Part shown: piece after piece, positions 58,245 to 63,996 of the stretch
Layout: each line of letters begins with the position of its first letter
Position numbering within the stretch: position 1 is the stretch's first letter
NCBI RefSeq assembly: GCF_002843235.3
Contig: NZ_CP031123.2
Location: 868,001 to 932,000 of the forward strand
Reading direction: 5' to 3'
Length of the DNA: 64,000 bases
DNA from: Providencia huaxiensis
Lineage (GTDB): Bacteria > Pseudomonadota > Gammaproteobacteria > Enterobacterales > Enterobacteriaceae
Notes under the pieces: model-generated
What the model saw: only the letters and a program-made list of their open reading frames with translations
The model's database searches: none
What the model was told of the DNA's origin: nothing
Translations under genes and position numbers: made by a program

Positions 58245-58318
58245 CCTAGTTGCTGACGAAATTCATCAAGTTAAGCATTTTGGCTTAACGCATTAATTTG
58301 AATAATAAGGATCACATC

Positions 58319-59428
58319 ATGGCACAAGTTATCAATACTAACATTTTGTCTCTGACCACTCAGAACAACTTAAACCGTTCACAAGGCGTTTTAGGTACGG
58401 CGATTGAGCGTTTATCTTCTGGTTCACGTATCAACAGCGCAAAAGACGATGCGGCAGGCCAAGCGATTGCTAACCGTTTTACGGCTAACGTTAAAGGTTT
58501 AACCCAAGCAGCACGTAATGCTAACGACGGTATTTCTATCGCACAAACTGCGGAAGGTGCAGTTAACGAAATCAACGATAACTTACAACGTATTCGTGAA
58601 TTAACGGTTCAAGCGAAAAATGGTTCTAACTCTGAATCAGATACAAAATCAATTCAAGAAGAAGTGGATCAACGTTTAGCTGAAATTAATCGTATTTCAG
58701 AACAAACACAATTTAATGGAGTTAAAGTTCTTAGCCAAGATACTAAAATGGCAGTACAAGTAGGAGCTAATGACGGTGAAAAAATTGACATCGAATTAAA
58801 GAAAATTGACCGTGAAACTTTAGGTTTAGAAAAATTTGACCTGAACTTTACTGGTTATGGTAAGGCTGCTACTAGTGTTAGTGTCAAAATAACAGGCAAA
58901 GATGAAACTCAAGAATTAGATACTACGGCTATAGATGCGAAAGTAGCAGCTGGCACTATTAAGTCCTATGAAGTTTTAGAGTCTATTGACGCAAATGGAA
59001 AGGTTGATCCAACTAAGTTAGTTGTAAAAACAACAGATGACAAAGGTGTCGTTGCCTATAACGAGGCTGCAGTTACCGCTGGTGCTACTGGCGCAAAAGC
59101 AAAAATTGATGTAGGGACTACAAAAGTTGACCCTGTTGCAGGTGATAAAGCGAATGCGAAACCACTTGAAGCTTTAGATAAAGCATTATCAACAGTTGAC
59201 GGCCTGCGCTCTTCTTTAGGTGCGATTCAAAACCGTCTTCAATCAACTATCAACAACCTGAACAACTCTGTTAACAACCTGAGCGCAGCACGCAGCCGTA
59301 TCGAAGATGCTGACTTCGCAACAGAAGTTTCTAACATGAGCCGTGGTCAGATCCTGCAACAAGCAGGTACTGCTGTATTAGCGCAAGCTAACCAAGTTCC
59401 ACAAGGTGTTTTAAGCCTGTTACGTTAA
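58319..59428 (+). CDS. fliC: Flagellin FliC
   Basis: FliC is the filament subunit. The 369-aa protein has the conserved N-terminal D0/D1 ([54 protein letters not shown]) and C-terminal D1/D0 regions (ending [21 protein letters not shown]). A variable middle spans about residues 170-280, with many Lys, Asp and Thr. ATG 58319 follows TAAGGA. A single flagellin gene is seen here. Confidence 0.98.
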
Positions 59429-59486: not shown

Positions 59487-59606
59487 GTCGTCATACTTCA
59501 AGTTGTAGATGCGTTGGCTTCACAAGGTCACCCGAATCACATACTTTAGTATGCTCATCGGGATAACCTTGATTGCCGCCTTCCTACAACTCGAATTATT
59601 TAGACC
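59487..59606. repeat. ERIC-type element after fliC
   Basis: The copy starts GTCGTCATACTTCAAGTTGTAG and ends CTACAACTCGAATTATTTAGACC, with the same ends as the triple array at 11.6-12.0 kb but a different centre. Confidence 0.8.
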
Positions 59607-59618
59607 TTGCTTTAGCAT

Positions 59619-60797
59619 TCAGTTAAAGTCTGCATGTATTTTAGTGTTAATTTTGACACAGCTGTAAATTAATATATTTGATAACAGAATAAAAATAATA
59701 ATAGCGAGAGGGGTGTTGACCAGAAAACCAGACTCATAAGCATAGGGTAGGGCAATTGCACCAAAGATATCCCCTGTCAAAAATGCGGTTTGTATTAAAC
59801 CAAAAATATGCTCGGCATTTCCTTTGCGGGCGATCTCCATCTCAACCAAATTAATTAATAGTGAGCAAACGGTTCTAAACATATACATGGCAATAACCGA
59901 GATGGCGAAAACAATCGGGGAACTAAATTTTATTGACCAAAACATACCATAGAGCATCAGCATACATAAACCAGAAAAAACGAGTAATGAGATAGGTTTA
60001 TCTTTGTCAGAAAAAATAAACATAAAAAGGTTCTTGAGTACTAGCCCGGTGATCACACCTAATGATAGCACTAGGCCAACATTTGTATCTGAAAAGTGCA
60101 TGTTTTTTAAATACACCGGAATAATGGGTAAGATCAGTGCCCAACTGGCGCCACTGATAATAAATGCAATAAATAAAATTAAATCTGCTTTACTGAAAAA
60201 AGGGAAAAATGAAGTGGTTTTTTGGGGGGGATTCTTAGCTAATGGTGTTTTATTCAGTGGTATTTTTAATGACGGGATGGCAATTATGGCGATTAGTACC
60301 ATACCTCCACTAATTAACAAAGCCGAACGATAGGGGGATTGATCTATAATCGATAAAATTGTGACTAGCCCCCCAGCAATAAAAGCCCCAAGGCTTTGTG
60401 CTACTGTGCTTAAATTATCAGTGTGCAGCAGGACTTTATTTTGTTCCTGTTTATCAATATTAAAAATCAGTGATTTTAGCGCAATAGCGATAATACTCGC
60501 ACCCATCCCTGCCATCAAACCTGAAGTCACGGCGATAGCCATCCCTGTGGGATAGGCTCTAAGAACAAGGCCACATCCATACAGTAAAAAGCCCACAATT
60601 AAACCAGTCTTAGTACCAAATCGGGATAGCCCTTTGGCATAAAGTAGTGAGCACGCCCCCGCAACCGCCATCATTACGTATGAAATTGAAAATAACTTCA
60701 ATTGCGCTTGCTGTTCCCAATAGATGGGTTGTAGTGTTTTGGATATCCACATCGGGAAAAGAAAGAAAAAATAAAAGAAATATATTTTGTATGTCAT
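59619..60797 (-). CDS. MFS transporter of the peptide cassette
   Basis: This 392-aa protein has about twelve membrane helices in two halves, with a loop around residues 185-205 (NKTPLAKNPPQKTTSFFPF). It resembles major facilitator exporters; the GLSRFGTKTGLIVGFLLYGCGLVLR stretch is the loop 2-3 motif A-like region. Its start is 2 bases after the TPR stop, so the two are translationally coupled. By analogy with other peptide loci it could export the product of the 22-aa gene. The substrate is unknown. Confidence 0.85.
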   Translation of the reverse strand: MTYKIYFFYFFFLFPMWISKTLQPIYWEQQAQLKLFSISYVMMAVAGACSLLYAKGLSRFGTKTGLIVGFLLYGCGLVLRAYPTGMAIAVTSGLMAGMGASIIAIALKSLIFNIDKQEQNKVLLHTDNLSTVAQSLGAFIAGGLVTILSIIDQSPYRSALLISGGMVLIAIIAIPSLKIPLNKTPLAKNPPQKTTSFFPFFSKADLILFIAFIISGASWALILPIIPVYLKNMHFSDTNVGLVLSLGVITGLVLKNLFMFIFSDKDKPISLLVFSGLCMLMLYGMFWSIKFSSPIVFAISVIAMYMFRTVCSLLINLVEMEIARKGNAEHIFGLIQTAFLTGDIFGAIALPYAYESGFLVNTPLAIIIFILLSNILIYSCVKINTKIHADFN

Positions 60798-60799
60798 GC

Positions 60800-62272
60800 T
60801 TACATACTCAACATTTTAATATTTTCCTTTACTAAAGGATTGTTTGGAAAAATATGTTGGCATTTTAAGAGATAATTGTAGGCAGCTTTCTCTGAACTTT
60901 GAGCAATTTTTTCAGCTTGTAAAATTAACCATTCCGGGGTCATAAAAATACCTGTTCTTTGCATAAGATGATCCAGGATTTTATAATTGCTATTTAATGA
61001 AAGAATATAAGCATAATTATAGGCTGTAAGATTATCTCCTGAAATTTCCCAAGCAAGGCGAGCATGCTTTTCTGCTGAAATATAATCCTCAGATGATAAA
61101 AATGCTATGCTCATATGATAGTGGCTATCGCTATGCATTGGACTAACAGATAATGCTCTTTGAATATTTTTTATATAGCTTGTTATATTTCCTTTATCAT
61201 AAAAACATATTGCTAATTCAAGATGATATTCAGGAAAAGCATAATCAATTTCAATTAATTGATTGAGATATGTTATCGCATCATCATATTTACCTAATTG
61301 TTTATAGCACAGGCATATATTATAAATAATTACGGAACGATGCATGTAGTGCATACTATGTTTGTCTGATAACTGTTGAAGTCCCCAATTAAGTAACCTT
61401 ATTGCTTCATCAGCATTTCCTTCTCTAAAAAGAATAAGTCCATATCCATTTCGGTTGAACACGGTGAAAAAATTCTTTTTATCTTGTTCTAAATAATCCA
61501 ACTTACCTGTCTGAATAATGTTATAAGCTTCTTGTAAGAATTGACGTCCTTTTTCGATATTACGCTTATTCGATTTATGGTGGCGAAGATATAGCATTGA
61601 TAATGTATAATTCGCCTTAATAATGCTTAACGGGTTTTCCGACTCTTTACTTTTAATGTAGTAATATTCTGCCTCAATAGGTTTATTGATACAGTTTTTG
61701 ATTGTGCCGATTATAAGTGCTTGTGATTTTTCGTAATTATCAAAGTACTCTAAACAGTGTTCTATCAGGTGATCTGCACTGTATATATCACCAGAATTTA
61801 TAATCATCAGAATATAGGGCTGAATAATGTCAATATCACCAAATTTTTCTTTTATTAATTCATTAATTAGTTTGGTTTCATTTTCAGTTAAATATATTTC
61901 TTCATTTTTAGCACAATCTACAATCAGGTTAACAGAAATGTTCATTCGATATAATGCTTGAATGAAACAATTAATCAGTGGGTATGATGAGAATTTAGCT
62001 GTAATATTGATTGTTTTAATTTCCGATGTGGCTATTTTTTTAGCTAACTCTGCAACTTTCCTAAACACCTTATCACTTAGATAGTATCTAATTTGGTCAT
62101 CAGGGCTAATTCTATCTGTTAAGGACAGTTTACTCTTATCAAAATTTTCTAAGGGATAAAGAAATTTTTTATCATTGATAGTTAGTTGCTCTTGTGAAAT
62201 ATATCTAAGTAATATATTCCGAATGATAAGATATTCCAAAGGAATGCTTGCTGCTAGTTTGAAGTAATCCAT
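60800..62272 (-). CDS. TPR protein of the peptide cassette
   Basis: This 490-aa soluble protein has tetratricopeptide-like helical repeats over about residues 160-480 (TVFNRNGYGLILFREGNADEAIRLL; YNICLCYKQLGKYDDAITYLNQLIEI; YHLELAICFYDKGNITSYIKNIQRAL; YHMSIAFLSSEDYISAEKHARLAW). The N-terminal 150 residues are a separate domain with a beta-alpha pattern (KTINITAKFSSYPLINCFIQALYRMNISVNLIVD) that I cannot assign. AGGGGG lies nine bases before ATG 62272. TPR proteins often bind short peptides, which fits the small gene just upstream. No catalytic motif is seen. Confidence 0.8.
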   Translation of the reverse strand: MDYFKLAASIPLEYLIIRNILLRYISQEQLTINDKKFLYPLENFDKSKLSLTDRISPDDQIRYYLSDKVFRKVAELAKKIATSEIKTINITAKFSSYPLINCFIQALYRMNISVNLIVDCAKNEEIYLTENETKLINELIKEKFGDIDIIQPYILMIINSGDIYSADHLIEHCLEYFDNYEKSQALIIGTIKNCINKPIEAEYYYIKSKESENPLSIIKANYTLSMLYLRHHKSNKRNIEKGRQFLQEAYNIIQTGKLDYLEQDKKNFFTVFNRNGYGLILFREGNADEAIRLLNWGLQQLSDKHSMHYMHRSVIIYNICLCYKQLGKYDDAITYLNQLIEIDYAFPEYHLELAICFYDKGNITSYIKNIQRALSVSPMHSDSHYHMSIAFLSSEDYISAEKHARLAWEISGDNLTAYNYAYILSLNSNYKILDHLMQRTGIFMTPEWLILQAEKIAQSSEKAAYNYLLKCQHIFPNNPLVKENIKMLSM

Positions 62273-62279
62273 ATAATAT

Positions 62280-62314
62280 AACCCCCTAATAAAAGGAGGT
62301 TATAACCTCCTTTT
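62280..62314 (-). promoter_or_regulatory. Alternative hairpins between peptide and TPR genes
   Basis: 62291-62314 is a perfect 24-base palindrome (AAAAGGAGGTTATAACCTCCTTTT), which on the minus strand makes a terminator-like hairpin ending in Ts. In the same RNA AACCTCC (62301-62295) can instead pair with GGGGGTT (62286-62280), hiding the TPR Shine-Dalgarno. The two folds exclude each other. This could set the peptide-to-TPR ratio or be regulated. Confidence 0.65.
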
Positions 62315-62321
62315 TATCAAA

Positions 62322-62390
62322 TTACTTAGCGTTGTACATTACAGAGAAATCTATGCGTTTAGTACTTGGTTTATGTTTGATCATTTTCAT
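62322..62390 (-). CDS. 22-aa putative precursor or signalling peptide
   Basis: A complete short gene: AGAGG lies about 7 bases before ATG 62390, then 22 codons and TAA. The product reads MKMIKHKPSTKRIDFSVM and ends in YNAK. It is basic in its first half and has a mixed hydrophobic/polar end. It is followed by a terminator-like palindrome and then by the TPR and MFS genes in the same direction, an order typical of loci for small secreted or modified peptides. It has no signal peptide, so export would need the neighbouring transporter. No family is recognised. Confidence 0.65.
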   Translation of the reverse strand: MKMIKHKPSTKRIDFSVMYNAK

Positions 62391-63155
62391 AATTAACCTC
62401 TTTAATAAAAAATTTAATTTGTGATTAAACTAATACACCGTTGCATCAGTAAATTTAAAATTACATTTGTTAAGCAATTTCGTCAAATGTAAAATAGTTT
62501 GATTTATTTCTATGAGGTTACTGCATTAACATGCTTATGGGGAAATATTAAGCTAGAATGACAATGTATGGAAAAATAAATAACTAAGAATTGGTTTGTT
62601 TTTTTGAATAAAATAAGTTTTAAACTTTTATATATTCTAAATTTTTTCATATCAGTGAGTTAATATTAAATGATCAATTAACTGAATTATTGATTTTTTA
62701 ATTTAATATTTTAATATTTAATTAATGTTGAACTAGCTTGATAATTATATTCTTTAAATATAATTTATTGGACGGATTATTTTTATCACTATTATTATCC
62801 ATGTCCCATACTATGTTCACATTTAAGGCTAAGCTAGCTTGTTGATAACTTCATTTTCTTTAAGGGAAATTTAACGTTTTCTAACTAAAGCTACAATCAA
62901 TAGCAAAGTCTAAAGCCAAAATCTGCAATTCAATGACAAAATCACCTTTCAATAAAACAACTTCTCTCACTTGTATTACCAGTAAAACTCCCTAAAAATT
63001 GTGTTAAAACAATTATTAAAGTTGTGGTTATTCAAATTTTACCTATTTAGGATAAGGCAAATAAAGCTATATTTAGTGCCTTACTCTACGGATTGAATTC
63101 AAAACCAACACAGATAATGAATACCTTTTATAGAGCTTGAAGGGTGATTCAGGTT
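62391..63155. other. AT-rich divergent control region of the peptide cassette and fliA
   Basis: These 765 bases contain no gene. They must hold the promoter for the peptide cassette (minus strand) and the early-class promoter of fliA (plus strand). I saw no FliA-consensus site here. The stretch is unusually long and AT-rich. Confidence 0.45.
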
Positions 63156-63869
63156 GTGAGTGATTTGTATACTGCCGAAGGTGTGATTAATAAAAATAGC
63201 CTATGGGAGCGTTATTACCCTCTAATACGCCATGAAGCCCTGAAACTGCAAGTCAGACTACCCGCCAGTGTTGATATCGACGACTTAATTCAAGCGGGGG
63301 GCATCGGTTTACTACATGCATTGGAACGTTTCGATGTGACCCAAGGGGCGTCATTTGCCACTTATGCGGTGCAAAGAATTCGGGGTTCGATGCTAGATGA
63401 ACTGCGTAGTCGTGACTGGGTGCCGCGCAGTGTGCGCCGCCAAGCGCGTGAAATGACCAAAGCCATTGGTGCGTTGGAACAATCGTTAGGGCGAAGTGCG
63501 ACTGAGCCGGAAATCGCCAAAGCGCTGGATATTGACCTTGCGGAGTATCGCCAAGCATTACTGGACACCAATAATAGCCAACTGTTTTCTTATGATGAGT
63601 GGCATGAAATTCATGGGGAAAGCTGTGAGCCGCAAATGGATGAGGACGATGGCGGTAACCCGTTGAGTCTGTTGCTAGATTCCAGTTTGCGTGACCAAAT
63701 TGCGGCGGCAATCAATCAGTTACCAGAACGCGAAAAAATGGTGCTGACGCTGTATTACCAAGAAGAGCTGAACCTGAAGGAGATTGGGGCGGTGCTGGAG
63801 GTGGGGGAGTCGAGGGTGAGTCAGCTTCATAGTCAGGCTGTAAAACGCCTCCGCGGCAAATTGAAGTGA
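63156..63869 (+). CDS. fliA: Flagellar sigma factor FliA (sigma-28)
   Basis: FliA directs transcription of late flagellar and chemotaxis genes and is held by FlgM until the hook is complete. From GTG 63156 the 237-aa protein begins MSDLYTAEGV like other FliA. Region 2 is clear (YPLIRHEALKLQVRLPASVDIDDLIQAGGIGLLHALERFD, FATYAVQRIRGSMLDELRSRDWVPRSVRR), and so is region 4 (LPEREKMVLTLYYQEELNLKEIGAVLEVGESRVSQLHSQAVKRLR). A GTG at 63144 would add four residues. Four matching promoters are found in this window. Confidence 0.96.
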   Translation: MSDLYTAEGVINKNSLWERYYPLIRHEALKLQVRLPASVDIDDLIQAGGIGLLHALERFDVTQGASFATYAVQRIRGSMLDELRSRDWVPRSVRRQAREMTKAIGALEQSLGRSATEPEIAKALDIDLAEYRQALLDTNNSQLFSYDEWHEIHGESCEPQMDEDDGGNPLSLLLDSSLRDQIAAAINQLPEREKMVLTLYYQEELNLKEIGAVLEVGESRVSQLHSQAVKRLRGKLK

Positions 63870-63996
63870 TGCTCGTCATACTTCGCACCACAGCGTTGTT
63901 GGCTTCACTAGTTCACCCTAGTCACATACTGATGTATGCTCCTAGGGCTAAACTAGCTAGCCGCCTAGCTGTAGCACGAATTATTTAGAGCATCAG
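63869..63996. repeat. ERIC-type element after fliA
   Basis: This is about 126 bases with GATGCTCGTCATACTTCG at one end and GCACGAATTATTTAGAGCATC at the other, the same end pattern as the other ERIC-like copies. It starts at the fliA stop codon. Confidence 0.75.

Follow-up and report, generated by a model that had tools for sequence, protein, structure and literature searches.

What is made by a gene of only 22 codons that stands ahead of a gene for a tetratricopeptide repeat (TPR) protein and a gene for a transporter of the major facilitator superfamily (MFS)? The question is raised by positions 868,001 to 932,000 of contig NZ_CP031123.2 of Providencia huaxiensis, a stretch of 64,000 nucleotides that we call here the window, in which these three genes lie together on the minus strand within the gap between fliC and fliA. 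The answer that we favour, as probable though by no means secure, is that they form a mobile cassette for producing and exporting a small ribosomal peptide product, which is most probably an antimicrobial, along an undescribed TPR-dependent route. We regard the cassette as a candidate new class of ribosomal peptide system, resembling those of ribosomally synthesized and post-translationally modified peptides (RiPPs) and laid out like microcin C, with the TPR protein at its centre. This answer builds on the co-conservation of the genes, the design of the peptide, the hairpins, the predicted fold, the gene order and the exporter-only alleles described below, from which we infer the rest of the mechanism. 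The features concerned are these:

62322..62390, minus strand: peptide gene, precursor-like, 22 codons; residues 1-19 conserved, 20-22 a variable tail; MKMIKHKPSTKRIDFSVMYNAK
62397..62401, minus strand: ribosome-binding site (RBS) of the peptide gene, AGAGG, recognized in the sequence ahead of the ATG
62285..62321, minus strand: hairpin between the peptide and TPR genes, core AAAAGGAGGTTATAACCTCCTTTT, -15 kcal/mol, z -2.5
60800..62272, minus strand: TPR protein gene, 490 aa, Pfam TPR match; N-terminal domain to about residue 140, superhelix about 147-490
59619..60797, minus strand: MFS transporter gene, 392 aa, MFS_1 match; putative exporter, putative immunity role
62413..62467, minus strand: probable promoter region of the cassette, a 78% match to the stretch ahead of the exporter-only MFS gene of genome G008
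58298-59428: fliC, flank of the cassette
63144-63869: fliA, flank of the cassette

The cassette holds no further genes in the window. A previous reading of this DNA, made from the sequence alone, had described a 22-codon gene with a good RBS followed in one direction by coupled TPR and MFS genes, and this description holds: the RBS is AGAGG, 2 bases separate the TPR and MFS genes, and 49 bases separate the peptide and TPR genes.

A short gene is conserved with the TPR gene

Relatives of the TPR protein were sought by protein search and came from Providencia, Pantoea, Klebsiella, Citrobacter, Xenorhabdus, Vibrio and more distant sources; 15 loci were gathered from genome contigs, and the plasmids gave 22 records, several of them only generic TPR matches, of which 12 regions were examined. 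When the short frames upstream of the TPR genes were listed, one peptide design recurred. It was made into an ungapped profile of 20 columns, against which all start-codon frames on both strands were scored at 26 loci, a set that leaves aside L001-L008 (short copies or weak TPR-only matches), L033 (a partial TPR) and L035 (a near-duplicate of L027). The 19 training peptides had been chosen by eye, and the scoring was therefore held out by clade: the own clade of each locus was excluded from the profile when that locus was scored, and the peptides of L022, L023, L029, L030 and L031 were never part of it.

Scored in this way, with all Providencia peptides held out, the window peptide gene reaches 52.4 bits and the next best of the 3049 other frames in the window 9.1, so that its score is above chance. 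In 22 of the 26 loci the highest score goes to the short gene that immediately precedes the TPR gene on the same strand, clearly in 20 (13.4 to 56.5 bits) and marginally in two: Streptobacillus (L031; 0.6 against 0.0 bits), where the leader is one residue longer, and Exiguobacterium (L032), where each of three copies scores 11.1 bits and a chance frame 10.9. The latter value is the maximum for any unrelated frame; elsewhere the maximum is 9.1. The top frame in Acinetobacter (L029, 18.2 bits) is a gene of 25 codons that lies between TPR and MFS, on the opposite strand. The profile drew a blank in the remaining three loci, those of Crocinitomix (L022), Ligilactobacillus (L023) and Listeria (L030), where a short gene of looser resemblance nonetheless lies upstream. 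All 11 of the examined plasmid regions that hold a member leave the peptide gene unannotated, in a gene table that is incomplete. The sequence-only reading had proposed that homologous TPR-MFS pairs never preceded by a conserved short gene would speak against it; the outcome favours that reading, since the short gene is present in five phyla, though its profile score is marginal in Fusobacteriota.

The peptides share the design MKxIKxxPxxKxVxFSVMY, followed by 1-9 variable residues, and accompany TPR relatives in Pseudomonadota, Actinomycetota, Bacillota, Fusobacteriota and Bdellovibrionota, the last being the phylum to which we take a metagenome-assembled genome (MAG) of Bdellovibrionales to belong. 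Across 17 peptides, whose alignment is nearly gap-free, Met1, Val17 and Tyr19 are invariant and Lys2 almost so. The Tyr stands at position 19 in 16 of the 17 and at 20 in one; it is followed by Asn, Gly, Ser, Ala or Cys, and the tail beyond it has 2 to 9 residues (1 in Exiguobacterium, 6 in Acinetobacter). The looser Listeria and Ligilactobacillus peptides have their Tyr at 18 and 17, respectively. Conservation is strong N-terminally and weak C-terminally, and the terminal NAK of the window peptide varies, so the ending near YNAK about which the sequence-only reading had asked gives way to the three invariant residues. Several comparisons concern the codons themselves: (i) the window and Streptomyces (L013) peptides are alike at 11 of their first 19 residues, but at only 30 of 57 bases; (ii) Exiguobacterium has three tandem copies, each with an RBS, that show 6 to 8 base differences and no amino-acid changes; (iii) the two copies in Streptacidiphilus differ by one synonymous change; and (iv) between Providencia species dN and dS are 0.018 and 0.97 in one comparison and 0.094 and 1.52 in another, rough values for 22 codons. 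A gene-encoded peptide with a conserved leader and a variable core corresponds to a RiPP precursor in the broad sense. A Crocinitomix MAG (L022:9698-12125) carries a 44-codon gene with a GG motif and KYNN, followed by a TPR gene and a methyltransferase gene, and is possibly a Bacteroidota branch of the system.

A hairpin follows the peptide gene

Folding controlled by shuffles covered 15 peptide-TPR gaps and gave a hairpin in all 15, with z from -2.0 to -6.1; the hairpin sequence differs between clades, those of Providencia and Pantoea soli being alike. A local fold without shuffles placed a hairpin of -14 kcal/mol or stronger within 90 bases downstream of 26 of 29 peptide genes, a count to be read with the caveat that GC-rich genomes give strong folds anyway; only the Crocinitomix gene, itself tentative, and the two inner copies in Exiguobacterium lack one. 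A pattern scan found one weak terminator-like site at the window hairpin, with 3 in the whole region against 1.3 expected. The hairpin is likely an attenuator or terminator, which would yield an excess of peptide.

Attenuated resistance operons of the ErmCL kind also have a short frame and a hairpin ahead of resistance genes. Since a short frame and a hairpin before MFS and hydrolase genes make the same layout, the peptide might be a regulatory leader, that is, a ribosome-stalling upstream frame with an attenuator hairpin that switches on a drug-efflux/hydrolase operon. By the profile, the arrangement that this demands, a short frame directly upstream on the same strand, is found in the window and in 21 of the 25 other loci. 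It fails in Acinetobacter, where the peptide gene between TPR and MFS has its own RBS and terminator-like hairpin and, being on the opposite strand, cannot be a cis leader of the TPR gene. Exiguobacterium, moreover, has three copies of an identical peptide, two of them without a hairpin, and the conservation of the peptide spans Met1 to Tyr19. The Acinetobacter arrangement and the tandem copies argue most clearly against a leader peptide, and of the explanations weighed here we hold this one to be the least probable.

The TPR protein

Pfam places TPR repeats within residues 281-375 of the 490-aa window protein, and the predicted structure (pLDDT 93) is a superhelix that resembles peptide-binding ones. 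The peptide-binding type that the sequence-only reading had assigned is therefore borne out by the model as regards the fold; binding itself is predicted. Invariant residues of the superhelix are Y222, R230, N273-G276, N318, D343 and Y349. That reading had also hinted at an enzyme in the N-terminal 150 residues: the N-terminal domain carries a conserved LTD...QIR motif and has no confident fold match, which leaves the hint undecided either way. It had seen no modifying-enzyme motif either, in agreement with the Pfam and NCBIfam scans, which find no modifying-enzyme domain in the two window proteins and list no radical SAM, YcaO, LanM/LanB, ATP-grasp, MNIO or ThiF match for either. Pfam, NCBIfam and PADLOC give the system no name beyond TPR and MFS.

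A stronger version of our explanation, which we put forward tentatively and think rather doubtful, makes the TPR protein itself a new peptide-modifying enzyme: its superhelix would measure off the 19-residue leader from the N terminus, and the invariant NRNG, Tyr and Asp residues together with LTD...QIR would act at the conserved step Tyr19-(Asn/Gly/Ser/Ala/Cys). The result would be a new class of ribosomal natural product, spread by plasmids over five phyla, with an MFS pump that can also spread by itself and confer resistance.

Streptomyces proteins of 334-419 aa (L051-L055 and L068:6001-6999) resemble the Streptomyces TPR members over their N-terminal ~210 residues, with ~40% identity, and have neither the TPR core nor the LTD motif. 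The L068 protein, the one scanned, ends in DUF6235 and is encoded on a linear plasmid near DUF6423, DUF6187 and peroxidase-like enzymes.

The exporter also occurs alone

Among 119 relatives searched, the MFS is present in six Providencia. Three of these (G008, G015 and G023) lack any TPR match, and a search around their MFS likewise found no peptide gene. In G008 and G023 the MFS lies between fliC and fliA, and in G015 it adjoins fliA, with other genes in place of fliC. The three frames run uninterrupted for 395, 388 and 392 codons, the one in G015 ending a few codons early. All three share a near-identical 5' region that resembles that of the window peptide gene, so the exporter-only alleles look like the outcome of one ancestral event and not of three. 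A dN/dS of 0.17 between two of them indicates purifying selection.

Between the window and G008, dS is 0.08 for the MFS and 0.50 for fliA; between the window and P. vermicola it is 1.52 for the MFS, 0.56 for the TPR gene and 0.66 for fliA; and between the window and G015 the MFS and fliA values agree (0.27 and 0.21). Because in the first two comparisons the MFS is out of line with its neighbours, it seems also to have moved independently of the cassette. Nucleotide identity to P. vermicola is 0.83-0.93 over the peptide and TPR genes and 0.63-0.79 over the MFS, with the drop at 60797, a sign of recombination that may have swapped the exporter allele at the TPR-MFS boundary. An exporter kept and traded without the producer genes is as expected of an immunity or resistance gene, although it may instead be a leftover, or a pump with another job. 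On plasmids, a TPR gene adjoins the MFS relative in all 10 records retrieved by a search that missed the distant MFS of Acinetobacter and Bacilli.

Partner genes in other loci

Flanking frames were clustered over 25 loci by simple longest-frame calling, which misses some genes. An MFS family flanks the TPR gene in 16 of them and a hydrolase family in 13, always in the order TPR, MFS, hydrolase where both partners were called; the hydrolase, of an S9/abhydrolase-like type, weakly matches acylaminoacyl peptidase in sequence and is absent from the Providencia loci. Hydrolase and ABC genes replace the MFS in Streptobacillus, and in Bdellovibrionales the TPR gene is followed by a frame with matches to ABC ATPases. 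In Priestia and B. badius the order is TPR, a 77-78 aa protein, an O-methyltransferase and MFS, and in Exiguobacterium a ThiF, a small protein and an O-methyltransferase are divergent from the TPR gene, the ThiF matching MccB (E 4e-23) and PaaA (5ff5, E 3e-22). A regulator with a helix-turn-helix (HTH) domain and RNPP_C lies near the locus in Priestia and Exiguobacterium. About half of the Streptobacillus moniliformis plasmid pSMON01 (L031), 10.7 kb in size, consists of the peptide, TPR, hydrolase and ABC exporter genes.

The window and L023 have minimal sets of peptide, TPR and MFS, and L030 nearly so. These sets, and the cationic peptide, would suit a small peptide toxin or bacteriocin that leaves the cell unmodified. 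The TPR protein would then act as its chaperone or give immunity inside the cell, and the MFS would be its pump. We judge this very unlikely: strong N-terminal and weak C-terminal conservation looks like a leader and a core, peptidase and modifying-gene partners are frequent, the exporter-only alleles lack the TPR gene, contrary to a role for it in immunity, and, to our knowledge, MFS pumps rarely carry peptides of 22 residues.

Somewhat less improbable, though still unlikely, is a secreted peptide signal that the MFS exports, a peptidase trims and the TPR protein receives inside the cell, as in Rap/NprR. The RRNPP proteins (Rap, NprR, PlcR) do pair a TPR superhelix with a small peptide, whereas the window protein has no HTH or RNPP_C match and a different N-terminal domain, and the system has a dedicated MFS and enzyme partners; a Streptomyces relative gives a sub-threshold RNPP_C match only. 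Of the two options that the sequence-only reading had offered, a secreted signal or a small antimicrobial, we lean towards an antimicrobial-type product because of the exporter-only alleles, the hydrolase, ThiF and methyltransferase partners, and the presence in two Bacilli of separate RRNPP-type regulators.

Genomic site and distribution

The fliA site was surveyed in the 16 Providencia genomes whose fliA region was retrieved. The cassette adjoins fliA in two and the MFS alone in two; in 11, fliC ends 0.2-0.6 kb from fliA, which leaves too little space for the cassette; and one (G011, L094) has a different insertion at fliA plus a 90-bp remnant of the MFS. Since cassette, MFS, another insertion or nothing can stand here, the gap is an accessory region, as the sequence-only reading had it. 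The insertion in G011 includes, among others, frames of 810 and 217 aa; the remnant matches the 3' end of the MFS. The stretch after fliC (window 59513-59604) matches the region after fliA of the related genome L101, and the converse is seen for 63870-63900, which suggests that copies of one intergenic repeat bracket the gap on both sides.

In 1-kb windows, GC content is lowest, at 26-34%, over the peptide and TPR genes; the MFS has 37% and the surroundings have 37-47%. Full-length members of the TPR family are present in 3 of 60 relatives, five more weak matches resembling other TPR proteins; in one of 394 genomes of the window's order, the window genome itself; and in two of 392 genomes of the genus of L013, one being the starting genome, besides 16 partial-length matches. 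Three further groups yielded no full-length member beyond the starting genome: an Arthrobacter family (197 genomes), the order of L023 (198) and the genus of L011 (148). Conjugative and mobilizable plasmids are among the carriers, and in P. burhodogranariea the cassette occupies a different site, where neither fliC nor fliA is matched within 10 kb. This rarity, together with plasmid carriage, the dip in GC and the alternative site, is compatible with horizontal spread.

Comparison with known peptide systems

The nearest likeness is to the microcin C (mcc) and McC-like peptide-nucleotide clusters. As PMC6495379 describes them, a very short precursor gene comes first, a terminator before the first enzyme gene ensures that far more precursor than enzyme is made, a dedicated pump (MccC) exports the product, detoxifying enzymes give immunity, and a fixed precursor length is tied to recognition of the N terminus. 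Of these features, the very short first gene, a terminator-like hairpin after it and a dedicated gene for a predicted exporter, an MFS, recur here. The differences are as follows: (i) the precursor has 7 aa there and 22 aa here; (ii) the central protein here is a TPR protein, and an MccB/PaaA-like ThiF was seen beside the Exiguobacterium member only; and (iii) the microcin C precursor ends in the Asn that carries the nucleotide, whereas the window peptide ends in NAK and a few of the variable tails end in N. With no ThiF in the cassette and no final Asn in the peptide, the window cassette resembles microcin C in layout and is not a member of that group. In pantocin A, too, a ThiF-like enzyme, PaaA, acts on a short precursor, PaaP; the Exiguobacterium ThiF matches PaaA, and the window cassette has no PaaA homologue.

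The FxSxx-COOH TPR protein (NF040586) is likewise a TPR protein named within a peptide system, but its model gives the Streptomyces L013 protein 21.9 bits against a cut-off of 300 and is not listed for the window protein. In the biphenomycin RiPP operon, according to PMC12707348, a short precursor gene is followed by genes annotated as MFS (bipB) and TPR (bipC), and BipC proved to be an arginase of the UPF0489 family; neither window protein has a UPF0489 match in Pfam or NCBIfam. No matching description was found in the open literature, most subscription papers lying outside the search.

Proposed pathway and significance

Taken together, we propose that the hairpin would end most transcripts and so leave the peptide in excess over the TPR protein and the exporter. 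The TPR superhelix would clamp the conserved 19-residue leader, measured from its N terminus, and present the Tyr19/tail region to the protein that processes or modifies it, which could be the TPR protein itself or a partner such as the S9-like hydrolase, ThiF or methyltransferase; in the Providencia cassette, which lacks those partners, a host peptidase is a candidate processor. The short product would then leave through the dedicated MFS, which would also protect the producer cell.

We know of no other small ribosomal peptide operon whose central protein is of the TPR kind. If our explanation is true, this peptide pathway escapes family-based mining, since its sole signature is a TPR protein under a generic annotation next to a gene of ~20 codons that annotation omits; the peptide profile can be used to find more members, and whether a TPR fold can serve as a peptide maturase becomes a directly testable question. 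The family would point to possible products of Enterobacterales, Streptomyces, Bacilli and Fusobacteria, together with a candidate self-resistance pump that may be transferred between bacteria.
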